Origin: Gonapodya prolifera JEL478 | Taxonomy: Eukaryota; Monoblepharomycota; Monoblepharidomycetes; Monoblepharidales; Gonapodyaceae | Direction: 5' to 3' | DNA: 64,000 nt | Assembly: GCA_001574975.1 (NCBI GenBank) | Contig: KQ965746.1 | Span: 319,812 to 383,811, forward strand | Part shown: positions 13,039 through 60,717 of the stretch, piece after piece | Position numbering within the stretch: position 1 is the first letter of the stretch | How the letters are laid out: every line of letters begins with the position of its first letter | The notes under the pieces: model-generated | The model's database searches: none | What the model saw: only the letters and a program-made list of their open reading frames with translations | Told to the model about the DNA's origin: nothing | Translations under genes and position numbers: made by a program

Positions 13039-15690
13039 TTACAAGGACTTTGCCGCTTTAACAAACGCTCTGATCTTATCCAAATCTTTAACACCCTTCT
13101 GCCCATCCACCTCCACCCCGCTGCTTACGTCCACGGCCCATGGTTTCGCGACACGAATGGCCTCCGACACGTTTTTGGGATTTAGACCGCCAGCCAACAC
13201 AAGTGGCAACCCGGAATCTGCAATGGATCGAGCCACCGTCCAATCGAAACTTTCGCCGCTACCACCCTGCTGACTCATCGTGTTTCCGACCAAGGTATCC
13301 AATACAAACCCAGACAGGGGTCCATCTGAGCCACCGCTGAGCCTGGCGGAAACAGATTCCGGAGATTCACCAGGGCCTACGTGCTCCGCTTTGAATGCGG
13401 GCACTGTAAGGAAACCAGCCAACGTGGCAGGTTCAGACCCATGAAGTTGCACCAGGTCCAAACCAACTTTGACCACCGCCCGGTTGATGAAGTCGTGGCT
13501 GTGATTGGAGAATACACCAACCAACAGCGGCCTTCGCGAGGACTGGACAGTCCGCGATATGTCTACACTGAACGAGCGCAAATACTCGTGGTATGACTCA
13601 GCGCTCCCATTGCTTGTCGCTCTGCTTTGTCGTTCGTTATCCAGTCCCCGCTCCGCCCTCCATTTCGCCACTGCGGTCGCAATTTCTGAAGCTTTGGCGG
13701 TGTCAACTTGTCTCGCGCTTGGTGCAAAAATAAGTCCGATTAGGTCTGCTCCACTATCTGCAGCAACCAACGCAGCCTCAACACTGTTAACACCGCAAAT
13801 CTTAACTAGCGTTTTACTTGAAGCAGTGGACTCTGGAGCAGGCGGCGGAGTTGAGGCGTCCGCACCCAAAAGATGCTGAATGAATTGACCCTTGTTCTTC
13901 GATCGCATCAGCGACTCCCCGACAAGAACTGCCTTTGCTCCTGCTTCCATGTATGGGATGACGTCTTGGCGTCCGGAAATTCCACTCAGAGCAACCAATA
14001 TCACGTCCTCGGGAACCATTCTGGCGAGGGAGCTGGTGGTGGCCATATCAACGCTGAAATTGTGAAGATTCCGGTTGTTGACGCCGATAACTTTTGATCC
14101 AATCGCGAGCGCCCGCTTCATCTCTTCCGCGTTATTGACCTCTACCATTGGTTCCATTGACAGCAAACGAGCGAATTTGTAAAGCCTCGCAAGTGTTGCG
14201 TCGTCCAAAATTGCAACGATGAGGAGGATGGTATCAGCTCCGTAAAGCCTCGCTTCTAGGATCTGATATTCATCAACAATGAAGTCCTTTCGCAAAACAG
14301 CAGGGCGATTCTCGATCTGATCAAGAGCTGCTCGCACCTCCCGCATATCTTCGAGAGAGCCTTTGAACCATTTGGGCTCTGTCAGCACTGAAATCACGGC
14401 AGCACCACCGCGGGCGTACGCGAGAGCCTGTGACGCCGCGTGGGCATTGATGTCAATGTCGCCCTTCGATGGCGATGCCCTCTTGACCTCGGCCATGATC
14501 GCGACCGGCTTCGCCACAGAGAGTAATCGTGCGGGGAAGTCAATAAGTGGCGGTGAAAGCCCTGCTGCGATGGAACGCTTCAGGAAATCAAAGCCGCGAC
14601 CAGGAAGTGACTTCGCCTGTGAGACATCTTTCAGACGTTGGTCGTGTATTTTTAGAAGGATTGAAGGGGCTCCGGACTTGGCAGGTGAGGAACTTGAAGA
14701 AGACGGGGCACTGAAATTTCCATTGGTGGTCTGCGGCTGCAGACCGCTGCCGACGGCCGCGAGGGAGACTTGAGCCTCAGAACCTCCAGCCGCCGTCGGC
14801 GTTGCCAAATGTCTCGTCAAACTGTGGACTACTCCCACACCCGCCGTTGCGGCATCCCCGCTTGGCACGATGAATGTTGCGCCCTCGCTTATCGACTTTC
14901 CACCAATCTTTTCCACCTCGTATCTTCCCAAAATGCTCTCCAAGGGCTTCACCAAATCATTTCTGATCCTCAGATCTTTCCAACTGCCTCCTTCCCATCG
15001 AAGGAAGTTCCAAAGCATGCGACGACCATGTTCGCTCGCAATACTTTCTGGGTGGAACTGGACCCCTTCAAGAACGTAGTCTTTGTGCCTGATACCCATC
15101 ACCACATTACTTTCCGTCTCGCTAGTGATTTCCAAAACAGCAGGGAGAGTCTTACGATCGCCTGCAAGAGAGTGGTAACGTGTAACCCTGATACCCTGCG
15201 GCACTCCTTCGTAGACACCGCGACCATCGTGGATCAGGGCAGACGTCTTTCCATGAACAATCTCTCCAGCGTACGTCACAACTCCACCGTATACCTCATA
15301 CATGCACTGCTCACCAAGGCAAACACCAAGGATTGGGACCTTGCCAGCAAATGCAGTGATGACATCCTCGGAGACGCCAGCAGCATCCGGACGGCCAGGA
15401 CCCGGAGAGATGACTACGTTACGAGGCTTAAGGGCCAAGCACTCTTCCACTGTAATCTCGTCATTTCTGAAGACGCGGACATCGGCCCCCAGCTCTGAGA
15501 GATACTGATACACATTCCAAGTGAACCTGCAAAATTTGGTCAGAACTTGTTTCACGATTACACTGATATCGTTCTGGTACCCACGAGTCGTAATTATCGA
15601 TCACTAAATTCAAAGCGGAAGACGTGGATTAGTCGGAGAAAGGAAGATATTTGAAGCGCACTTACGAAGTGTAATTCCGGTTCCCATCAT
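13039..15690 (-). CDS. TRP1: Trifunctional tryptophan protein (GATase - IGP synthase - PRA isomerase)
   Basis: Fungal fusion enzyme of tryptophan synthesis (A. nidulans trpC type). Three exons, 15690-15666, 15603-15585 and 15526-13039, give 843 aa; the 19-nt second exon joins to restore LIDNYDSFTWN. Residues about 1-210 are the glutamine amidotransferase subunit of anthranilate synthase, with nucleophile Cys in GVCLGEQC and the FHPES His/Glu. About 280-560 is indole-3-glycerol-phosphate synthase (AEVKRASPSKG). About 580-843 is phosphoribosylanthranilate isomerase (KICGVNS). Its partner, anthranilate synthase component I, is encoded by the next gene upstream on the same strand, 110 bp away. 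The middle exon uses the donor GTGGGT. Confidence 0.95.
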
Positions 15691-15800: not shown

Positions 15801-17510
15801 CTAAAGAATGCTGTCGTGAGCGGAAGTGTCAACGAGTACCTCTTTGTGGGGAATCGCGCCGTTGATGGCGGTGTGCTTTAATGTCAAGGCTTCCTCTTGC
15901 TTCTGCATAGAGCTGTAATGCAGTTCGGCTCGAGCCAAAGCGGTAATATTGCTTTTCAGCTTGTTGATCGTCTCCTCATACTCAGCATCCGGATCCGAAT
16001 CATACACGATTCCTCCGCCTGCTTGCAGATATGCCACACCATTCTTGAACAACATTGTGCGGATTGCGATGCAGGTGTCGATGTTCCCAGCATAGTCGAA
16101 GAAACCAACAGATCCAGCATAAATGCCACGTTTCTCGCGCTCAAGTTCGTAAATGAGCTCCATAGCACGGACTTTTGGAGCACCTGACACTGTACCGGCG
16201 GGGAATATCGATCTGAAAGCATCGAAGCCCGTTTTTCCGGGCCTCAGTTGACCAGAGACGTGCGAAACAATATGCATCACGTGAGAGTACCGCTCAATGT
16301 GCATTAGTGAGTCCACCTTGCACGTTTCGGGACGGCAAACCCTGTTCACATCGTTTCGGCCCAAATCAACAAGCATGATGTGCTCAGCACGCTCCTTGAT
16401 GTCCGCCAAAAGTTCCTCTGCCAGGACATTGTCTTCGTCAGAGGACTTTCCTCGCTTTCGTGTTCCAGCGATTGGGTGAGTCACAACCTTCCCATCCTCC
16501 ACCTTCACCAACATTTCGGGAGAAGCGCCGACCAATTGGAAGTCATTGAGATCGACGTAAAACATATAGGGTGAAGGGTTGACCGATCTGAGCTGACGGT
16601 ATGCATTGAATGGATGAAGGGTGGTTGGGCGGGCAATTCGCTGTGATGGCACAGCTTGAATGATGTCTCCCTCATTAATGTGATGCTTGAGGCTCGTCAC
16701 AAATTTCTTGTAACCTTCTTCGCCCACATTTGAGGTGCCCTCGTTTCCAAGTTCAATGTGCGCTTGCTTGGGCAAGGGGGTAACTTCCGCGTTAAGGAGG
16801 TCAATCATCTTCAAAATCTCTTGCACCGCGCGATTGTACTCTTCAACAACAATGTCCGGAGAAGACCCTTCAGCAATGTGCATATGTGTTACAACAGTAA
16901 TGACGTGCGTGAGGTGGTCAAAGATGATAACGGTATCGCAAAACATGAAGACTGCATCAGGGATTCCTAGAGGGTCGGCTAAGTCGCGTCGTGTTCGCGG
17001 TTCGAAGTACTGGACGCAGTCGTAAGCAATGTAGCCGATTGCACCGCCTTCGGGAGAAAGCAGTCAACTTTCCAATGCACATCATTAAACCATAATAAAC
17101 GGTGAACTTGCCTGTGAAGTTCAGCACTCCTGGATATTTGACGATTTTCACGGATTTCAAACGTTCTTCCAGGATCTTGAGAGGGTCCCCTCTGTCAGGA
17201 AACTTCTCTCCAGTTTTGACAACATCATACGGGTGAGCGCCGAGGAAGCTGTATCGTCCAATTTTTTCGCCGCCCGCGACTGACTCAAGCAGAAATGAAT
17301 ACGGGGAGGATGATGCAACCTTCAGATACGCTGACACGGGAGTGAGGAGGTCGGCAGCGATGGTTTGAAAGACTGGTATAGTGTTGCCCACACCGGAGGC
17401 CACGAAGGACTGGACTTCAGAGAGGCTGGGCTTGAACGACTAGACGACAGGTCGGAATTAAATATCACCCATCTGGTACCATTCATGAAGCTGCAACTCA
17501 CAGAAGACAT
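15801..17510 (-). CDS. TRP2: Anthranilate synthase component I
   Basis: Converts chorismate to anthranilate with ammonia from the amidotransferase domain of TRP1. Exons 17510-17502 (ATG TCT TCT only), 17439-17112 and 17047-15801 give 527 aa, the normal length. Family motifs visible: LLES and GRYSFLG in the feedback-binding N-terminal part, then YMFYVDL, AGTRKRGK, LVDLGRNDV and GAPKVRAMELI in the chorismate-binding part. The second intron (17048-17111) starts with GC instead of GT (CAG|GCAAGT), and the join gives GGAIGYIAYDCVQYF without a break. The start codon lies only 11 bp after the stop of the small gene upstream. Co-location with TRP1 suits equal supply of both subunits (inference). Confidence 0.95.
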
Positions 17511-19038: not shown

Positions 19039-22000
19039 ATGGAGGGCCGAAGTCTTCTGACGGGTACTGGAACGACGAATTACAGGACATTTGGTGGACC
19101 AGAGCGATCGGTAACAAGCATTTTGACGGATGGACGTCCATCCCTGGAACCATCATTTTCGGGAAACATTCCACGTGTGCGGCACCGCTCTCGCTCGACG
19201 CATTCAGCGCGGCCCCCTAGGCGGCTGTCTGGGGGGGGCCAACTTTCTTTTCGAGAAGCGTTGCGAAACGACCCCAACGATTCAAATCGCACTGTCTTGC
19301 AAAGTACCTCCTATTATGACGACGACAGACCATTGAGACCACAACGCATTATAAACCCGCGTCATAGCATATATTCAAACTACGAGAATGTTGAGTCAGG
19401 CTCGCAACAGCGGGGCGCTCAGACGTTGACAAATGCCATTCCTGTGGATGCTCCGCAGGAGCCACCGGTGAACAAGCGTGTGGAATATATGAACTTTGTT
19501 TCTATTGACTGGACGAATGAACTCACGCGAGAGAGCCACCGGCGGCGCGAGTTTCGAAGATTGCGTGGATGCTGGGGAAGCACACAGCGATTGTTTTATG
19601 CATGTCAGGCATGGGTCCTGGTCGCACTAATTGGCGTGATAGGAGCAGTCTTTGCTGCGTTCATCGACATTACGGGCGATTGGCTTTCGGATTTGAAAGA
19701 AGGGTTCTGTCCTGATGAGTTCTACCTCAACAAGCACTTCTGCTGTATGGCATCCACGAGTAAGCACTGGTTCAGCGAAATTGCAAGGCTTCTGATGTAG
19801 GGTATTTCTCTCTCCCAAGCTGATGAATCATGTCCCTGGATATCATGGTCAACTTTCATAACCAGTCAACTGGGAGTCCAGGATGAGGTTGCCACTTATG
19901 CAGCAGCCTTCATTCCCTACACTGCGTTCGCGTGTCTCTTTAGCTCAATCGCGGCTATACTTGTCAAGGTGTGTGGGATCATTGGAGAGTGCACCAGCAA
20001 AGGGTCTCTTCTTACCATTTCCGGTGAAGACATATGCCCCTTATGCGGCCGGCTCTGGTATTCCAGAAGTGAAAACAATTTTGGGTGGTTTCGTCATTAA
20101 AAAGTTTTTGGGATTCTGGTATGTCTCATGATTGGACGTCGCTGAGGTTCCCTGCACTTGGTAAAATTTCATGACTCAAGGACTTTGATCGTGAAAACCA
20201 TTGGACTAGCACTGTCGACAGCCTCGGGCCTGAATTTGGGCAAAGAAGGACCTCTCGTGCACGTACTATGTGCCATCGGGAACATAGCGTCTCGAATCTT
20301 TCCAAAGTTCGCATATAACGAGGCGAAGAAGAGGGAAATACTTTCTGCTTCGTGTGCCGCTGGGTGAGTGAATTGTTACTTGTAAGCCGCAACATCAATG
20401 TTGAAAGAGTACACCTCACCTCGTCAGAGTGAGGTAAGGAAACGTAAAGTGTGAGATGTATCTCACTTACCAACCCAAGTTTACGTCGCGGCGATTTCAC
20501 TTGGTGGCTAGTGTTGCATTTGGAGCTCCGAGTAAGATGGCTCTGGCGTCGTTCCCTATCGGTTGGGTTTCACTCTGCATTTTCCAGTTGGTGGTGTGCT
20601 TTTCGCGCTGGAAGAAGCGTCCACATACTTTGGGCCCAATACTATGTTTCGATCTTTTCTTTGTGCGATGACGGGAGCTTTCGTTTTGCGGCTCTTGAAT
20701 CCCTTTCGCAGTGGAAAGTGAGATTGCGGGCGTGACTCACTCATTTGCTTTTCGTTTATCTTGTCCAAAAACTTAGACTTGTCCTTTACGAAGTTCAATA
20801 TACAACCGCCTGGCGAGAACATGACGTGCCTTTCTTTATCCTTCTTGGGATCTTTGGAGGTGTCGTCGGAGCTCTGTTCATCCACGCGAACCTCCGAGTA
20901 GCCCAATTCCGTCGCTGGCTTAAAGTATCACAATGGCCAGTGCGGGAGGTCTTCTACGTGACTTTAATAACTGCCATCTGTAGCTATCCTATGGTGCTCC
21001 TTAGGGCCAACCTGGGTCACCTTGTTAGCAACTTGTTTCGCGAGTGCTCAGAAGTGGACGAGGAGTTTCAGGATGTTATTTGTTCAGACGATGTGACATT
21101 TTCGGCTGGGTGAGATCATAAACATGAGTGCATCGCGCTCTTTGATCTTCAACCTTGTTTTTCCAGGTCTCTAGTGATCGCATTCGTGGCCAAAATTCTA
21201 CTCGTGACATGGACATTCGGTATTCGTGTCCCATCGGGTATATTTCTCCCACCGTTAGCAATCGGGGCTCTCGCAGGCCGTGCCTTGGGTATCGCTGCCA
21301 AATACTTACAGGAAACGTATCCAGACCACTTACTTTTTGCGGCATGTAAGAATGTGGACACGGAGCAATGCATATCGCCAGGTTTATATGCATTGGTTGG
21401 AGCGGCCGCTGCATTGGGTGGTGTCACGCGAATGACTGTTAGCTTGGCGGTCATCGTTTTTGAATTGACTGGTGTTCTCGAGTATGGTGCGTCGTGTTTT
21501 GTTGTTACACCTTCGTTCAAAACAGCGATCGTTGTATTCATCCCAGTACTTCCAATAATGATCGCAATTATGGTTGCAAAGTGGACGGGTGATTGGCTGG
21601 GGAAGGAATCAATCTATGAAGGGCTTATAACTTTGAATTCGTTGCCGTATCTATCCCCACGTCTCGGTATGTAACGGCTTGCTTGTGTCTCTTCCAACAA
21701 TTCGCTTACTTCTTAATCTTGCAGATTACCTTCACCCTTACCAGATGGAAGACATTATGACGCCAACAAGTAGTCTATGTACCATTCATGCATATGGCAG
21801 CACTGTTGGAGATCTCACGACAATGATCCGCTCTTATGATTTTCAGCAGTTTCCAATTGTGGACATCGACATGACACTGGTCGGCATCGTTGGGGCGCGG
21901 GAGTTACGCTATGCTCTCGATGAAGCTGTCAAGAATGGTGCCACGGAAACCACCCCCGTTGTGTTCGAAGAAGAACATGGAGGGGTGTATCTGGAAGGAA

Positions 22001-22383
22001 CTAGTCTCTCACAGGAACCCGAGAGCCTTGATGAAGAAGCGCCTGTAAACTTGCGTAATTGGATTGATGTCACGCCATTTTGCGTCCAGAGTATTGTCTC
22101 TGTGCATTCAGTGATCGATTACTTCGTGAAGCTGGGGTAAGTATGTCCCGATGAAGCTCGCAAGAGTCGCGGATTGACGAATTTTTCGGTCTTGCATAGA
22201 CTCCGGTACAGTGCTGTCACTGATAATGGATATCTAAAAGGTATCCTAACGAAGAAAGACCTTCTCAGGCACTTGGTGCATATGGAAGCGGCCGAATTCG
22301 AACAGAAGCTTTTCGTGGAGACGGATCGTGAAAGGAAATTAACTGCACGGCTGTGGAATGTTGAGGGTAGAATCCTGGACTGA
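19039..22383 (+). CDS. CLC-family chloride/proton exchanger (GEF1/ClC-3 type)
   Basis: Membrane anion transporter with C-terminal CBS domains, expected in Golgi, endosome or vacuole. Eleven exons: 19039-19759, 19820-19968, 20030-20118, 20181-20363, 20428-20433, 20512-20531, 20588-20717, 20777-21109, 21167-21666, 21725-22136, 22200-22383 (908 aa). CLC signatures: [14 protein letters not shown] (gating Glu kept), AAGVSVAFGAPIGG, LFALEE (the Glu pair that marks H+ exchangers) and GIFLPP. Two CBS repeats lie in the last 230 residues. The fifth exon is only 6 nt and the sixth only 20 nt; both are needed to rebuild the AAGVSVAFGAPIGG loop. The N-terminal 170 residues are polar, rich in Ser, Arg and Pro. 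Confidence 0.93.
20428..20433 (+). other. Predicted 6-nt micro-exon of the CLC gene
   Basis: AGTGAG is flanked by CAG on the left and GTAAGG on the right. It contributes the last base of a Gly codon, a Val codon and two bases of a Ser codon, turning GVAFGAP into the canonical GVSVAFGAP. The flanking introns are then 64 and 78 nt, normal for this window, instead of one 148-nt intron. It sits in the 3' arm of a 7-bp inverted repeat (20413-20419 with 20429-20435). Confidence 0.75.
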
Positions 22384-26093: not shown

Positions 26094-27913
26094 TCACAGT
26101 TTGGCGATGATCTTCTTTGCATCCGCCTCGGGAATACGCTCAATGATCGTGCAGTTCGCAGTACCCCCACCCTCGCAAATGGCTTGGAGTCCGAACCTAT
26201 CGAGGAAATGTGTCAAACGGAGGCCCGTTAAGAATCCAACGTCATATTCACCTTCCGTTTCGCCTTTCTAGTTCGTAGAGAAGGGTGGTCATAATTTTGC
26301 ATCCTGTGGCTCCAAGTGGGTGGCCGAGAGCCTGTGGTATCACCGTGCCAAAGATGCTCGAGTTACAAAACACAAAGGTGTGGCCCACCTGAGCTCCTCC
26401 GTTTACGTTAAGTTTGTTAATGTCAGCGCCGACCTCCTTCGCCCAGGCGAGCGGGATGGATCCGAACGCTTCGTTGATCTCGTAAAGGTCAATGTCCTTG
26501 ATGGACAGGCCCGCCTTCTTGAGAGCATTCTGGGTTGCTGGGATAGGTCCGTGGAGCATGACGACCGGGTCTAAGTAGTGATTACAAAAATTGTGAGAAC
26601 AAAATTACGTGAACACGAACATCGGACGAACGAGATACGACATGAAGCTCACCTGTTCCAGCCAGAGCAAGAGTGTGAATCTTGGCCCTAGGGCGAGCGT
26701 TCTTGCCGAGCTTCTTCAGTCCGGCCTCGTTGCAAATCAAGATTCCAGCTGCACCATCGCAAATCTGGCTCGCACTTCCAGCAGTGATGATCCCTCCCTT
26801 CTTGAGGGCTGGCAGCTTGGCCAGTGCCTCGACGGTCGTTCCCGCGCGGATACCCTCGTCCGTGTCGTGGATAACCTCAGCACCAGTTTTGGGGTCGGAC
26901 CCCTTGATTGGAAGGATCTCCCTCTTGAAGTATCCGTTCTTGGTGGCGTTAAGAGCTTTCGAGTGACTGGCTGCGGCGAACGAGTCGATTTCGGCACGCG
27001 AAACTCCATACTTGGACGCGACAAGCTCGGCAGCGGTGAACTGCGAGAATTCGATGCCCTTGCCGTAGCGCGCCTGGACTCCCTTGGCATCGGCGTGTCG
27101 TCCGTGACCGGCGGCGTGCCCGTCGTTCTCCGCGGCATTGATGGGCACTTTGGTCATGTTTTCGACACCTGAGGGAATAAGTCAGAATGGGTTGAATCGC
27201 TATTGTTGTTCAGCAGGAGAACCTACCGCATGCAATAACGATGTCTTGCACACCCGACATGACGGCTTGGGCGGCAAAGTGAACCGCTTGTTGAGAGCTA
27301 CCGCACTAAAAGAAAAAGAATCGATATCAGTTCAAAGCCACTGCGCGGAAATCGTTCACCCTCTGATTTGAGCACAAAAATGGAGCAACTAGTGTCAAGA
27401 CTTAAAGATAGGGGCATTGACTGTCACCATCTGAACTTTGGAACGTCAGTCCACCTCTCAAAAGTAGACATCACACTACTTGTTCGTCGTATCGTGCCTC
27501 GAATCCAATATGGGGGACTTGACTCACCATTCGGTTCACGGTGGTACCGGGAACACTCTCAGGGAGCCCCGCAGCAAGGACAGCCGTTCGTCCAATGTTC
27601 ATGGACTGCGATCCCACTTCATCGACACATCCGAGAATAACGTCGTCGATGTCGGCAGGGTTGATACCAGAGCGGCGAACCAGTTCCTTCAGAACCTCGC
27701 CAGCGAGATCAGCGGGTTCCCAATCCCGAAGGCGGCCGTTCTTGCGTCCACCTGAGATAAGCAACGATGGATTGGTGAAGGGGAATGGCGACGATGGGAC
27801 AATGATGGTGAGCGGAACTTTCTTCGGCACGACATCAACGCCGAACCCGAGACCTCAAGGAATCTCTCACCAGCAGTGCGGACAGCTTCGACGATGTATG
27901 CAACGGGTGCCAT
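26094..27913 (-). CDS. Bacterial-type acetyl-CoA acetyltransferase / 3-ketoacyl-CoA thiolase
   Basis: Thiolase, forming or cleaving acetoacetyl-CoA or longer 3-ketoacyl-CoA. Seven exons: 27913-27871, 27751-27528, 27305-27227, 27168-26653, 26570-26389, 26331-26252, 26196-26094 (408 aa). The nucleophilic Cys lies in VNRMCGSSQQAV, split by a 222-nt intron; the His in GGAQALGHPLGATG; the second Cys in LQAICEGGGTANCTIIER. CGSSQQA and CEGGGxAN follow the bacterial (actinobacterial FadA6-like) pattern I know, rather than the CSSG / CIGGG pattern of ERG10-type enzymes. The protein ends in AKL, a PTS1-like peroxisome signal. Beta-oxidation in peroxisomes is the likely role. Confidence 0.9.
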
Positions 27914-37678: not shown

Positions 37679-39526
37679 ATGAGCGCGTTCGATGGGCAGC
37701 ACGAGCACGACTGGACCGATCATGACGCGCACTCACACGACGCAGACGCAGACCAGGTGGAGGAGCAGAAGGGTGAGCATGCACACTCTCTCCTCCTTGG
37801 TTTCCCTCCACACATCCACCCACCCACCCACCCACCTGCTCATTTTCCTCCACGCAAAGCATTCTTTCGATGCCTGGCCGCGTTCACCCACTACAAGATC
37901 CACTCCCTCGCCACGCTTGCGCGGCGGCGGCGACACTACGCTGCGCTCCCCAGTCCCCACAAGTTGCTGTTGCGGAACGCTGGGTTCGAACAGAAACTCG
38001 ACCACGCGGAACAAGCCGTCCTGCAGAACTTTGAGTTTATAAAGTACATTGTGGCAGAGGAGAGTCCGTTTCCCTATGACGAGGATGCGAAGAAGGAGGT
38101 GAGTTGTTCATCATGCCGGGCAAGAGGAGGTCGGTGTTTGGACGGCACTGGAGAGCGCTTTCATTGAGGGAGATATTAGACGTATTCTTCACACGGCTCG
38201 TGTCCTAAATTGCATTCACCCCTCTCAGCTGTCCGATTCCGGATCGCAAGAATCGTCAGAGAGCGACATGGACCGCGTTCGGTCCACCATCCGCCAAGTC
38301 GTACGGGACTGGAGTGCAGAGGTACGCCCGGGGGTATCCGGGTTGTGGTGGCTGGGCGGTGTATGCCACCACATGGAGAGACGAGGCAATGAACCGATTT
38401 CGCCCAGCTCAGGGCCGCGCCGAGCGCGACGCGACGTACACCCCGATCATGGAAGCGCTCGACCGCGCCTATGCGTACCTCCCACCGTCTGAGCGGTACG
38501 TTGCGTGACGACGACGGCACAGGTCCCGTAAGCCTGTCATTTTTCTCACACCGACTTCACAGGCACACAGTCCGCGTGCTTGTCCCCGGAGCAGGATTGG
38601 GCCGCCTGTGCTACGAAATCGCCAAGCGGGGGTACTCGTCGCAGGGAAACGAGTTTTCATTCTACATGGTACGTAAAGAAGTCTCACTCCGCTGCCTTAT
38701 GCAGCGTCAGCTTTGCAACCTGCCATCCACTTTCCAACCTTTGTTTCCCCCAATGCCCTCGTTTCCCCCACGTCTCCCACGCCAAACACCTCACACACTC
38801 ACCAACACTAAGCTCCTAACGTCAAACTTCCTCCTCAACCGCATCCAAAGACCCCGGCAGCACGTTATCCACCCGTGGGTCCACTCGTTTAGCCACGCGC
38901 CCACGGCGGCGGATACGCTGGCCGCCGTGCATGTCCCGGACGAGGTGCCGGGGAACCTCCCCGCGGGAGTGGACTTTTCGATGGTGGCGGGCGATTTCAT
39001 TGATATATACGGGGGAGTAAAGGAGCGCGGTACGTTGTTTGTGTCACGTTGATGCACGCACGGCTGTCGGGGTCTTGACCCGCGTTGCACGCTCACGCGC
39101 ACGCTCAGGCCAGTGGGACTGCGTCGTGACGTGCTTCTTCCTGGACACTGCGCGCAACGTGTGCCAGTACATGGACGTGATCCACTCGTGCCTTGTTCCG
39201 GGCGGGGTGTGGATCAATCTCGGGCCGCTGCTGTACCACTTTGAAGGCTCCGAGGAGGAGCCCACGGTCGAGCTCAGTCTGGAGGAGGTCCAGAGCGTGG
39301 CGAGCCAGTTCGGGTTTGTGTTTGAGGTGCGTGCGTGTGTGCGTTGCGTGGTGTGGAGTATGTGCAGTCGGAAACGTGAGCATGTGGTGTGTTCGTGTGT
39401 GTTTAGGAGTCCCGAATGCTCGACGCGACGTATGCGCATAACCCCAGATCCATTATGGCGTATGTGTATCGGTGTGGGTTCTGGGTCGCGCGCAAGCCTG
39501 GAGAGGAGGAAAACGTTGCGGAGTGA
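37679..39526 (+). CDS. CARNMT1: Carnosine N-methyltransferase (N2227 family)
   Basis: SAM-dependent methyltransferase of the CARNMT1/UPF0586 family (yeast YNL092W). Eight exons: 37679-37772, 37860-38098, 38229-38321, 38413-38495, 38563-38668, 38813-39029, 39109-39326, 39407-39526 (389 aa). The SAM-binding motif VLVPGAGLGRL is followed by SQGNEFSFYM, LLTSNFLLN, FSMVAGDF, WDCVVTCFFLDTA and GGVWINLGPLLYHFE, all in family order. The N-terminus is His/Asp-rich. In animals the substrate is carnosine (methylated to anserine); the natural substrate in a fungus is not known. The joins are supported by phase and motif continuity throughout. Confidence 0.92.
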
Positions 39527-43906: not shown

Positions 43907-44235
43907 TAACATGCATTTCAATTGTAAATGATACGTGATGCACAATGAATTGATTTTCCTGAAGCAAAACTACTCTATCAAACCAATCAAATCAGCACTA
44001 CAAAAAGAGCAGGAGACTGCCAGCCAAAAGGAGGGGAAAGCTCACCTAAAACTTGAAAACTCATCAAAATGCGAAGAAAGGTGACGAACTGTGTCTGATC
44101 TCGAACTCTGCAAGAAGATACGAATTGCGAAAGTGAAAGTGGATGAACATAACGATCCACTTACGCAATTTTAATGCTCATAATGTCGTCCTCGCCACTG
44201 TACCAGCTTTCAAAATCGCAAACCTGGTCCAGATA
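43907..44235. other. Intergenic between convergent genes
   Basis: 329 bp between the hnRNP-like gene (+) and the K+ channel gene (-), holding both 3' ends. AT-rich, no gene or repeat seen. Confidence 0.45.
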
Positions 44236-47200
44236 TCATTTAGAAAGCGTGGCAATAACGTAAGAACGCCATTGACACACTTTCAACTCAACATGGCTGG
44301 GTGTCCGGGTGCCCAGCTCCCCAACAAGGGTAGGGATCGGTATTTGTAGAGGTAGATTGTAACATGCCAAGTCTCTCGTGGCAAACGGGCTTCTGGGCAG
44401 CGAAGCATCCAATGTGTCGCCTCGCAAATAGAGATCAGATGCTCCTTGACTCCGAGATATAAAAGACATATGTCGCGACTGATGACGTGACGGCTGTGGA
44501 ATGGGGTCAACTGAATCCACTACGTCTCCAGGAAAAGCATCCCCTTGAGCAGGGATCACTCCAAGGGACGACTTCGAGGAAAATGACATATGACGTGCTT
44601 GCAAATGTTTACGACGACTGGGAGAAGGGACCTTGGGGACATCCGAAGAGGTATTAGGTTTGTTGCTTCCAACACTCGAATTACCGCTGATTTTGACTGG
44701 TACGCGCAATAGGTTTTGCGGATTTTCGGTCGGTCGTTGTGAGTCTACGTCCAGAGAGTTCGACTCCCGATAAAGCGAAAGTACTGGGACTCCCAGGGCA
44801 GCAGAGGCCACCAGCTCCGAAATGGTAGTCAGGTGTTCTTCGGGTTGAGAGTCTTCTTTTACCTCTGGTTCTGGCTCGACAGTTTCCTTTTCAAACAAGA
44901 AAAGATGAGGGACTAAGCCATTCAAACTGGCATTGGGCAGTTTGGAGGATCTCGGAGCTATGAGCTGCGGTCTTTGAGTAGTCAAGGCAAGGGGAGGCTC
45001 CTTATCCTTTTGGGGAGGTGTTCCGCGAGTTGGGAGGAGCTGTGGTAATGCAGTGGCCGTGATAGTTGGAACTTCATCTGCCCCAACTTTTGGAAGTGGA
45101 GTTCCACGAGTGGCCGCTGTCCGCATAAATGACAGTCCCTTTTTCGAGTCCAAGCGGGAATGATTTGACGTTGTCGCGACCGCAGCAACTTTGGGTGCAG
45201 TCGAAGTCATTGCAACGCTCGGGTCATTTGCATCAGTTTTTTCGTCTGCGAGTGCCAAGTTTATCGTCTCAGGCGGGTTGAGAGCTGGTGACGTTTCTGT
45301 ATCGTGTCCTAACGCAGCATCCTCGTGCAACGTTTCAGCACTCTGCGATGGTTGTACTGGCGAGGCTCTGTTTGAGATGGAAACATTTGTCCCTCGATCT
45401 TCGAAACGATTGCCCATTTCAACGGTTTTCGAATCCCTCACGAGTGACGTCTCGTCTGCTGATGTGACTTCGATGACAGGTTCCTGGGATCCGAGGGAGA
45501 TCTGCTTGAGCGCCTTTTGTGTAAGCTCAGTGAACCGCTTCTTGGCCCGTTTCGGGTGTAGTCCAGACAATCGAAGTTTCTTGCGAGCGTCTTTTTCGGC
45601 TAGCTTCATATGCTTTCTACGCATCTGGTATACCGCATGAGAAAGCAATACTGCTGGACGTCGACGCAAAACCTACAATCTTTGCATGCTGATTAGCTTC
45701 CCAGCGGCGCAAAAGGTGGGAAAACTGGAACGTGATCATTGTCAGAGGGAATGCGATGACAAATCTAAGAGTGTTTGAATAGAATCAAGGATTCGAATGG
45801 GCCCCAATTGGTCGCGATAAAACGCACAATGAAGATACAATTGCGAGAGACGCGGCAGTCTTCCCTAGTGGTGTTTTCGGTGTTACATCGCCGTATCCGA
45901 TCTGAAGGAGGAGTTGAAATGGGTTTGTCTTCAATGACAACTGGAATATTACTTACTGTGGTGAGTGTGACAAGAGTGAACCAGAACGTATGCGGAATAG
46001 ATTGGAACGCTGATATGGAGTTGTCTTCAACGTAATACCAGTACCCTTCCTGATAGTACTCTCCCGTTTGCTCCGCGTAGTAGATAAGTGTGCTGAAAAA
46101 CGCCACGATCGTAACCAAAGCGTACAACAACGCGAGGATTCCGTTCCTGGATTCTACAAGCGCGGAGAGGAGTAGTTGAATCTTTCCACTAGAGCAAAGG
46201 GACTTCAAACTTTCGACATTTGCAATTGCGCTGAAATAATATCACACCTTTTACCCGCTATCCGAAACAATCGAAATACTCGCATCAGCCGAAGCACTCT
46301 GAGGGTCGCGAGCCCCGTAACGCCGACCGAGTTGTGAAGGGGGTCTGCTCCCACGCTGATGACATACAGAAGCTCCCCCCATATCGGCAGTGTGGCCAAG
46401 AGATCAATTACGAACCACCACGAGAGCACTTCCCACACTGATGCCTGGCTTGTTAGCGAGGTTGAGTTGATTCAGGTTGAGAAAACCCCGACTAGACGTA
46501 CCATCCCCAGCAAATTCAAACAGATTTCGACGGTAAACAATACACCACAGGTCATTTCGATGAAAAAGAAGGCAACATGCGCTTTATCTGAAACCTCTAA
46601 GCTCGGCAGTGTCGCAAGACACTGTTGTCCCAGTTCAACTTCACTCTCAGTTCACATGCAAAATCGCAGGACTGTTACGCACCATCGATACTGTGCTCAC
46701 TATCACGGTCGTCATGAAAATCCAGCTGAAAATTTGCGCCCACCGACTGCTCTTGTGATCTCGCATAAACGATCGGACGTCTTTTCGCCACATGGGGAGT
46801 CTGCGCGCCTTTTCTTCTATCTGCAGCTCTCTCAAGGATTTATTTCCTCCAAGGTTTCGTTGATGGACGTGTGGCTCAGAGACGCTTGAAGTGAAATTTC
46901 CCGCAAACCTTCCTCCCGTCCGTGTGACGCCGAACGATTCTGCCTGACTGCCCGCCCAATCTGTTTCCGTGTTTGTCGGGTAGTCTGGAAAGCCGAAAAT
47001 TCCTCCTCCTCCTCCCCAAGGCGTGCCATACGGGTCAAAGGACGAGTACTCCGATTGCGATCCGGTAGCACTTGCGGACTCGGTTCTTCGAGGAGGGCCA
47101 CTGAGCCCCCGTTCCTCCCCATCAGTGTCCACATCTTCGATCTCGCTCTGCGCAGATTCCTTCGAATCTTCTTGGGAACCCAGAGCAAAGCCATCAATGT

Positions 47201-47730
47201 CAGAGCCGTCGGTGTAGTTCCCCGTTTGTTCGTCTTCCCAAGTGATTGACCGACTCAAGGGAAGTCCCGATTCTTGTGCCACGACGACACCATCAAGCAC
47301 GAGCGCTTTCACCTTGGAGGACGTGCGTCGACGTTCTCCCGCATTTCCCTCCCTTGCCACTTTGGGAAGCGATTCCGGTTGGGTTGCAACGCGAGAAGTT
47401 CGTTTTGAGTCAGATTGAGCGGTGAGAGGTGTTTTGAGGCCCTCAGAGCCGTCCAGTAGCGACGGATCGGAAGTGACACCTGGCCGTAAATCGCCTGCCA
47501 GGAGTTTCAAAGCTCAAATCCACACCAAGCCACAAATGGCTCTTTCACCACATACTATGCGACATAACGACCGGTCCTACGAACCCCGGTCCACCAACCC
47601 AGACAACATCGTGTTGGCGAGAGGAACGACTTCCCTGCGATCGCCGACGTCCTCGCCGCCGTTTTTCGATCTCGTCGATGTTTTCGCTGTCAATCTCTTC
47701 TTCAGCGACGGCTCCAAGAATTGCTTCCAT
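44236..47730 (-). CDS. Voltage-gated K+ channel (Kv-like, six-segment)
   Basis: Plasma-membrane K+ channel subunit, expected to work as a tetramer. Eight exons: 47730-47556, 47494-46683, 46621-46502, 46444-46248, 46188-45957, 45901-45828, 45764-45677, 45624-44236 (1028 aa). S1 IFSWIFMTTVIVSTVSM joins CLATLPSLE as in Kv proteins; S2 HVAFFFIEMTCGVLF; S4 sensor TLRVLRLMRVFRLFRIAG with five Arg at every third place; pore FWFTLVTLTT joined across an intron to IGYGDVTPKT (filter GYGD); S6 SSLFVIAFPLTMITFQF. I see no T1 tetramerisation domain in the Ser/Gly/Asp-rich N-terminus and no cyclic-nucleotide domain in the 470-residue C-terminus, which starts with a Lys/Arg-rich linker. Confidence 0.9.
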
Positions 47731-57757: not shown

Positions 57758-60717
57758 ATGTCGAAGCAGCTGGAGTTTGGATTTGTGCGTCGGAAGGCGA
57801 TCTGCGAATCGTGCCGCGGTGGCTTCACATCCGTCTCTTCCCTCGTGCACCGATGTAGGACCCCGTTGCTCTTAAAGCAAAGTATCTCGCGGAACGTGAT
57901 AAGGTAAGTTTTTCACACGCTTCCCCTGTTTCGTAATTCGAGTTCTCACTCCTTTCCGTCGCCTCCCTCAAAAGCGTTTGAGAGCGGTATGTCAGTCGGC
58001 TGGTTTTACGGTACATCACCACAAACAACAGAGCGCCGACCACTAAACAGGACGGCAATGCACAATACCTTGGTATCGATAAAGACGGCATGTTTGGTCG
58101 CTTCCTCGAGGTACGTCGTTTGTGACAAGCGATTTCAGTTGAACAACACCCACATAAACCATTCCGACTCAAAAGGACCCCTACACCCCTCCCATTGTAC
58201 GCGACCCACGAGCCGACGACGTCAGAATCGCAGTTCTTGGCGGCGGTTTCGCCGGACTGCAGACAGCGGCCAAGATCCGAGAAGCCGGCTTTTCGTCGCA
58301 AGACGTTCTCATGATTGAGAAAGGCGGCGACTTTGGTGGCACTTGGTGTGAGTTCGAGCCTGCGCCGTCGGTTGGTGCTTGGTGCCCGTCACTAACACGG
58401 AGGCGATCCGTTGTTTTCAGATTGGAACCGATACCCTGTACGTCCCACCTGACGAAATATGATCGTCTATTTCGAATCTGATGTGCGAGTCTCTTGCAGG
58501 GCGCAGCCTGTGACACTGAGTCGTACATTTACCTTGTAAGTCTTGCGCCATTGCTCTGTGCGCGCGGATGAGCACAAATATCCAACGGACGGTACCCCTC
58601 CCAGCCACTCCTCGAGGAGACACAATTCATGCCCGAGTTTAAGTACACCAAAGCACCCGAAAGTGAGTACCACTTTCCACCATGTTCCCCATCTCGCTTC
58701 TTCACGCCCCATCCGCAGTCCTGGCCCACTGCTCCCGCATCGGCCGAAAATACGATCTCTACTCCAACGTCCTCTTCCAAACCGAGGTTAACGAGTTGCG
58801 CTGGGACGACGCTCGCGAGCGCTGGACCATCATCACAAATAAGGGTGACCGCATCAGCGCCCAATGGGTCGTCATGGCGAGCGGGCCGCTCCACAGACCC
58901 AAGCTGCTCGGTGTGCCGGGAATCGACTCGTTCAAGGGGCACAGCTTCCACAGTGAGTCTGGGGGAACGTCTAGGGATGAAGTGACGTGTAATTTGACTC
59001 GCTCATTGTTTGTGATCGCGTTATAAAGCTTCTCGGTGGGATTATGAGTACACTGGTAAGATTTTTGATGTCATTTTGGCACGTCGAGTACGCTCAAACT
59101 CACGCCACACTGCGTCGTAGGAGGTACATCTTTGGGTAACCTCGAGCGTCTGAGCGACAAAGTGGTCGCAATCGTAAGTACCCCCCCTTCTCCCCTTCCA
59201 CATCACACGTCAACTCACTGGGCGCACTCCACCAGATTGGAACAGGTACAGTCCAACCCACCTGCCACGTCTTAAACACACACACGCCAACCACTCTCCG
59301 CACCAGGCGCCACCTCCGTGCAGTGCGTCCCCCACGTCGGCGAAAACGCAAAACACCTCTACGTGTTCCAGCGGACGCCGTCTTCGATCGACGTGCGAAA
59401 GTGGGTGGGATGTCGAAGGCGTGCGAGGTAGACTCGACTGACGACGAGACAATTATGTTGTTGTTTGGCAGCAATCGCCCGACTGATCCGGAATGGTTTT
59501 GGAGCCAGAAACCTGGGTGGCAGAAGAGGCGAATGGGTGAGTCGGGGCAAGACTCGTCGGACGTGTCCATTCGTTGATCTTTTCTTTCATCAATATCTCG
59601 GTGCCCACTTATTGCTCGACCCACGCCCCTCCTCGCTGATTTTCCTCTTTGCACAAACTCCAAGACAACTTCAACATCTTGGTCCAAGGTGGCTACCAAG
59701 AGGAGGATCTCGTGGGAGATGGATGGACCAGCATTTTCAGGATGATGTTTGATGTCGTCAAGGCTGGGAGAAAGCAGGGTCTTAAAACGTCGACCTTACT
59801 CCAAATGGCCGACTTTAAGAAGATGGAGGAAATTAGAGCGAGGGTCGACTCGATCGTGAAAGACCCGGAAACAGCCGAGGCCTTGAAGCCGTACTATAAT
59901 CAATTCTGCAAAAGGCCATGCTACCATGACGAGTATCTGCAAACGTTCAACCGGGAGAACGTCACGCTCGTGGACACCAAGGGCAAGGGTGTGACTGAAA
60001 TCACAGAGCACGGGATCGTTGCGAACGGCAAGGAGTACAAGGTGGATTGTATCATCTTTGCCACTGGCTTTGAGACTGGCGCTACATTCACGCGGCGCAA
60101 CTACTGCAACATTTTTGGACGAGGTGGCTTGTCCCTCGACGAGTACTGGAAGGATGGCATGCGCTCGCTCCATGGAATCTGGATGAGGAACTTCCCCAAC
60201 TTTGCAATTATTCAGAACTCGCAGGCTGGAGCTTCTGTAAACTTCCCGCACATTATTCAAGGTTTGTCTTGTTTGTGGTTAGATTTCCAAGTTCATACAT
60301 TAACTCTTTGCTCTGCAGAGCAAGTGGTTCTGATCGCAGATGTACTTTTGAAGAATTTAAGGGCCAACGTTAAAACCATGGAGGTTTCCGAAGCCGCTGT
60401 GGACAAATGGGTTCAGGAATGCCTTCGAGTTGCAGTGCTGCGCTCTTCGTTTTTGGAGGAGTGCACGCCTGGATATTACAACCGTGAGTACAAGGTATCT
60501 CCCCGTGGATCCGAAGCCACGCTCATTTCCAACCGTGTGCTCAGTTGAGGGCAAGATTGACAAACGTGTGACCCAAAACTTAGCTTACGGGGCGGGTCCA
60601 ATTGCCTACGCGGAGCTTCTTCACAAATGGCAGGAGCAAAACGCAATGGCTACAGACATGGAATTTTCGTACCTGCAACAGAAGCTAGAGGGCGCTGGAG
60701 TCAGCGCTCGCCTGTAG
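57758..60717 (+). CDS. Baeyer-Villiger (class B flavin) monooxygenase
   Basis: FAD/NADPH enzyme that inserts oxygen into ketones, giving esters or lactones. Seventeen exons, 614 aa: 57758-57784, 57859-57903, 57975-57986, 58051-58110, 58176-58347, 58421-58437, 58500-58535, 58605-58662, 58719-58952, 59029-59055, 59121-59173, 59236-59245, 59307-59400, 59472-59536, 59665-60261, 60319-60483, 60545-60717. Marks in order: [21 protein letters not shown] site [23 protein letters not shown], the Baeyer-Villiger fingerprint FKGHSFHTSRWD (F-x-G-x3-H-x3-W-D), NADPH site IGTGATSVQ and ATGFETG. Exons of 12, 17 and 10 nt restore these motifs exactly. The substrate is unknown. Confidence 0.92.

Follow-up and report, generated by a model that had tools for sequence, protein, structure and literature searches.

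Exon 5 of a CLC-type chloride/proton exchanger gene in Gonapodya prolifera JEL478 very probably consists of six bases that are constitutively spliced in through intron definition. The gene lies in a stretch of 64,000 nucleotides (positions 319,812 to 383,811 of contig KQ965746.1, forward strand), which is called the window and whose positions are used throughout. The six bases are in frame, restore a conserved motif, and give the best protein fit among the enumerated splicings. The features of the window are listed in Table 1.

Table 1. Positions of the CLC gene, of the exons and introns around its micro-exon, and of other features of the window.
Feature	Position	Strand	Remarks
CLC-type chloride/proton exchanger gene	19039..22383	+	From start to stop codon; 888 aa encoded by 12 exons; start codon set manually
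Exon 4	20181..20363	+	Ends ...ILSASCAAG; phase 2, codon GG/A split
Intron 4	20364..20427	+	64 nt, GTGAGT...GTCAG
Micro-exon 5	20428..20433	+	AGTGAG; supplies the end of G, all of V and the start of S; phase 2 on both sides
Intron 5	20434..20511	+	78 nt, GTAAGG...GCTAG
Exon 6	20512..20531	+	20 nt, short as well; finishes S, then VAFGAP
Intron 6	20532..20587	+	56 nt
Exon 7	20588..20717	+	Carries the E-E pair
Flavin monooxygenase gene	about 57758-60717	+
Flavin monooxygenase 12-nt exon	57975-57986	+	RLRA; gapless alignment with PDB 5mq6
Flavin monooxygenase 17-nt exon	58421-58437	+	YWNRYP; gapless alignment with PDB 5mq6
Thiolase-gene 222-nt intron	27306-27527	-	Gapless junction NRM/CGSS
Potassium-channel-like gene	44161-47730	-	Ion_trans domain
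Trifunctional tryptophan gene	13039-15600	-	Glutamine amidotransferase, IGPS and PRAI domains within one ORF
Chorismate-binding/anthranilate synthase I ORF	15801-17063		Adjoins the trifunctional tryptophan gene
Carnosine N-methyltransferase-like domain	38393-39052	+	PF07942, 105.3 bits

Gene model and identity of the product

The model of the CLC gene contains 11 GT-AG introns, and its 888-residue frame is free of internal stops. The nine introns other than introns 4 and 5 are 56-63 nt each. The product that includes the micro-exon matches Voltage_CLC (PF00654) with 278.2 bits against a cut-off of 24.8, covering positions 3-345 of the 346 positions of the profile; the score is 267.7 bits when the micro-exon is left out. 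A CBS domain is also found in Pfam at 36.7 bits (cut-off 24). Eukaryotic CLC members carry CBS domains at their C-terminal end, and the alignment of the product with CLC-3 extends out to residue 855.

The top PDB match is the CLC-3 H+/Cl- exchanger (8jev) with 606 bits. The next match (220.5 bits) is 7jm6, which is labelled 'Chloride channel protein' in the PDB and which we take to be CLC-7. The signature motifs of CLC proteins are GSGIP, GKEGP, and a third of the GxFxP type. All three are found in the product and are aligned with those of CLC-3, the GxFxP-type motif being SGIFLPP. The E-E pair of exon 7 is presumably the proton-glutamate region of CLC exchangers. By its sequence the product is assigned to the CLC-3/4/5-type exchangers, with CLC-3 as the nearest among the solved CLCs, and coupling of Cl- to H+ is predicted.

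Restoration of the conserved segment by six bases

The stretch 20364-20511 can be read as one intron or as two. Read as one intron of 148 nt, it leaves the frame open and the product reads ...SCAAGVAFGAP..., in which two residues of the conserved segment are gone. The earlier note had described this loss of two loop residues, and its letters (GVAFGAP) and coordinates are exact. Read as two introns, the same stretch gives a product that reads ...SCAAGVSVAFGAP..., where AGTGAG at 20428-20433 brings back CAAGVSVAFGAP. The borders of the micro-exon (CAG/AGTGAG/GTAAGG) are those of an internal coding exon between AG and GT. The six-base exon, its CAG and GTAAGG flanks and the lengths of the two introns had been claimed in that note as well, and all the letters match. 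In intron 4, the A of a CTCAC sits 9 nt upstream of the intron end.

Protein fit of the alternative splicings

Splicings with one or two introns were enumerated from GT or GC donors and AG acceptors, with introns of at least 40 nt. There are 83 open splicings that keep FGAP in frame (11 with one intron and 72 with two), and only the micro-exon splicing yields CAAGVSVAFGAP, which bears out the claim that the six bases give GVSVAFGAP. A wider set of 128 splicings yields 115 open products that differ from one another. Of these, the product with the micro-exon ranks first against all seven reference CLCs, namely CLC-3 and six bacterial CLCs drawn from 279 matching plasmid records. Against CLC-3 it scores 535.6 bits, the runner-up 527.3 bits, and the product that skips the six bases 526.1 bits. 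The skip product loses 9.5 bits against CLC-3 and 5.5-7.7 bits against all six bacterial CLCs.

Inclusion of the micro-exon adds 5.2-10.0 bits for 56 of the 57 distinct PDB sequences that were matched; the score of the 57th, 2j9l, which consists of CBS domains only, is unchanged. When the skip product is aligned, all five printed PDB alignments, three of them to versions of CLC-3, show a gap at the motif that is exactly two residues long. With the micro-exon, the alignment to CLC-3 (8jev) is gapless at AAGVSVAFGAPIGGVLF, with the same letters in both proteins; the identity of the two is about 48% across the aligned segment of 585 residues. The length of the GVSVAFGAP segment is constant across the CLC proteins aligned: the segment is identical in CLC-3, and in all six bacterial CLCs its length is equal while its residues vary. 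The short loop is absent from the distant relatives aligned (the five PDB alignments, CLC-3 and the six bacterial CLCs). Queries made from the protein and from the CLC-3 alignment, with 2-6 peptide patterns each, matched no relative in the viral and prokaryotic contig collections.

The chance expectation was obtained from 300,000 dinucleotide-preserving shuffles of the interior of the 148-nt intron, where any AG/exon/GT was allowed. The exact GVSVAFGA is offered by 1,578 of the 300,000 shuffles (0.53%), and by 100 (0.033%) when the donor is GTRWG. With [VILA][SAGTC] accepted at the two places, the counts are 10,084 (3.4%) and, with the GTRWG donor, 705 (0.24%). All of these percentages are conditional on the two-residue gap having been spotted beforehand.

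Splice signals, intron lengths, and gene finding

The matrices behind the splice scores come from the intron calls of a simple home-made gene finder. Among five models, the micro-exon scores -5.78, the skip (148-nt intron) -6.54, a 116-nt intron ending at 20479 -5.96, a 1-nt exon with the acceptor at 20479 -4.53, and the zero-length recursive route -9.69, which is the lowest. The CAG at 20427 (1.56) and the GTAAGG at 20434 (3.57) fall inside the leave-one-out range spanned by the other nine CLC introns. On the matrix of these nine introns, intron 5 has a low-scoring acceptor (-1.35), which still lies between the leave-one-out limits of -4.11 and 5.77; this acceptor (20511) is common to the micro-exon and skip models. 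The acceptor AAG at 20479, inside intron 5, outscores the TAG at 20511. If this AAG follows exon 4 or the micro-exon, the motif drops out of the reading frame; only a different exon, for example that of 1 nt, is compatible with it.

Run freely, the home-made gene finder selected the splicing with the 1-nt exon rather than the micro-exon; in this run neighbouring genes were merged, and the CLC gene was begun late (19747) with its first intron misplaced. In the scoring run the CLC gene was lost upstream of 20991, so that this run made no prediction of its own there and supplied just the matrices. The splice scores hardly separate the models and the finder chose the 1-nt exon; the case is therefore carried by protein conservation. 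The splice signals allow the micro-exon without selecting it, and protein conservation selects it. The claim that gene finders overlook such exons agrees with the available parts of PMC12940212 and PMC8831610 and with the choice of another splicing by the home-made finder.

Intron lengths were compared with 19 other introns of the window whose junctions are gapless in protein alignments read by eye (seven of the nine of the CLC gene, seven of the flavin monooxygenase gene, and five of the thiolase gene). The two remaining CLC introns (60 and 57 nt) were left out, since their junctions lie beside alignment gaps. Eighteen of the 19 introns are 55-82 nt long and one is 222 nt long. Given this 222-nt intron, a length of 148 nt is unusual and still possible, so intron length is not decisive.

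A common origin for these two introns, 4 and 5, was also considered and rejected. Their alignment score of 14 ranks 82 among 171 intron pairs and is matched by 273 of 500 shuffles, and there is no sign of a duplication.

Alternative explanations

It is unlikely, but the least improbable of the alternatives, that the six bases form a frame-preserving, regulated cassette, so that both a long CLC (GVSVAFGAP) and one shorter by two residues are made. Skipping retains the frame and leaves the outer splice sites unchanged, and because the frame survives, the cell could toggle between the full exchanger and the shorter one. The two residues presumably lie in a helix close to both the dimer interface and the ion path. 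If the cassette were real, the shorter CLC might act as an inactive or dominant-negative partner. A seven-base stem, ACCTCAC/GTGAGGT (20413-20419/20429-20435), spans the CAG acceptor, the micro-exon and its donor (20413-20435 on the + strand) and could hide the exon. However, the region folds ordinarily (z -0.93, equalled by 30 of 200 shuffles) and the stem accordingly carries no weight; moreover, a donor-like GTGAG and a branch-like CTCAC are inherently complementary, so the stem may be due to chance. A regulated micro-exon is known in Trichoderma Xlr2, according to the available part of PMC11121469.

That the 148-nt intron is removed whole and the protein is truly two residues short is very unlikely. 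The frame stays open, the splice score is a mere 0.76 below that of the micro-exon model, and the protein-checked intron of 222 nt shows that longer introns are present in the window. Yet this reading has to accept the exact two-residue gap in every printed PDB alignment, the poorer scores against CLC-3 and all the bacterial CLCs, and seven aligned relatives that have no shortened loop. It also leaves six fitting bases to chance, at 0.033-0.53%. Two further splicings are improbable in the extreme. One joins a 1-nt exon (20428), an intron at 20429-20479 and an exon from 20480 into a product nine residues longer than that of the micro-exon. It is the choice of the home-made finder and has the top splice score of the five models, but its protein fit ranks 30 of 115 (518.3 against 535.6 bits with CLC-3), and it adds residues where neither CLC-3 nor any of the six bacterial CLCs has them. 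The other, hardly credible to the same degree, is recursive splicing, in which 20364-20433 is removed, GTAAGG serves as the next donor, and 20434-20511 follows, giving the short product from an exon of zero length. GAG/GTAAGG at 20433/20434 is formally a recursive site, but GAG is a weak acceptor (0.15) and the CAG six bases upstream is better (3.64); the splice score is the worst of the five, and the product equals the skip product with the same inferior protein fit.

Proposed route of inclusion

For the constitutively included micro-exon, we infer the splicing pattern of the RNA, its constancy, and the intron-definition route together. The spliceosome would pair the splice sites across each short intron (64 and 78 nt) and not across the exon. 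Both introns would then be removed and exon 4, AGTGAG and exon 6 joined, which would restore Gly-Val-Ser-Val-Ala-Phe-Gly-Ala-Pro. With introns near 60 nt and sites paired across the intron, the exon need not accommodate two sets of factors. Skipping would keep the frame and lose two residues, and damage to the transporter would be expected.

In Caenorhabditis elegans and mammalian cells, shortening a flanking intron relieves micro-exon inclusion of its requirement for PRP-40, and intron definition is proposed for such inclusion, as given in the available part of PMC8378409. The anatomy of the CLC micro-exon fits this proposal.

Comparison with known tiny exons

The size limit of a micro-exon varies by author from 15 to 51 nt; exons below 30 bp are so defined in the text of PMC9142197 available here. 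For bglA of the basidiomycete yeasts Sirobasidium magnum and Rhodotorula minuta, the same source gives minimum exon lengths of 5 and 6 bp, defined from cDNA. The bglA genes resemble the CLC gene in having an exon of five or six bases and many short introns, and the introns of R. minuta bglA average 60 +/- 4 bp, similar to those of the CLC gene. They differ in that bglA is a glycosidase gene with exons defined by cDNA.

Micro-exons in P450 genes of Phanerochaete chrysosporium have a shortest length of 6 bp (PMC1184071, available part), and a short exon lies within the AGHETT motif of one of its P450s (PMC12940212, likewise). These genes are like the CLC gene in having a six-base exon and short exons inside conserved motifs, although they encode P450s. 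Introns that fall in conserved motifs may favour micro-exons, as PMC12940212 puts it in the portion consulted.

The lower limit for the spliceosome is not six bases, as the earlier note had held, since 1-nt exons with RNA support have been published in the accessible sections of PMC12940212 and PMC8831610. They include the exon of Fusarium CYP621A, which was inferred from a conserved motif and is supported by reads (PMC12940212), and those of plant APC11 and VPS55 (PMC8831610). Like the CLC exon, these exons are required for the full protein, and they were absent from annotations; unlike it, they are shorter still and are backed by many orthologues and RNA reads, as far as these two sources are available. 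No report of a CLC micro-exon appeared in the titles and abstract beginnings of the best 10 of 92 literature matches for fungal chloride-channel microexons. The six-base CLC exon is very probably a fresh example of tiny exons, a phenomenon that is already known.

Protein conservation can thus expose an exon that is beyond the reach of splice-signal scoring. Annotated without the micro-exon, the CLC would seem to have two residues deleted where the compared proteins show no deletion.

Other short exons and genes of the window

A second gene of the window, that of a flavin monooxygenase, has exons of 12 and 17 nt (Table 1). On the evidence of these two genes, tiny exons look like a habit of the genome. 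The CLC micro-exon and the two flavin monooxygenase exons suggest that the gene models of this genome need a second reading that admits exons of such size. The middle of the flavin monooxygenase gene (58953-59688) is poorly modelled and may contain more short exons.

In the potassium-channel-like gene, the stretch around 46231-46501 is also poorly modelled and may hold further short exons. An 8-nt exon (46437-46444) called there by the home-made finder looks like an artefact of this poorly modelled stretch and was set aside. In the thiolase model (27528-27913, - strand), about 20 surplus residues seem to follow VEAVRTA, as judged from thiolase N-termini, and the first intron is probably misplaced. 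A tRNA search of the window found none. Glutamine amidotransferase, IGPS and PRAI domains in one ORF are the typical fungal arrangement, and the trifunctional tryptophan gene of the window exhibits it.
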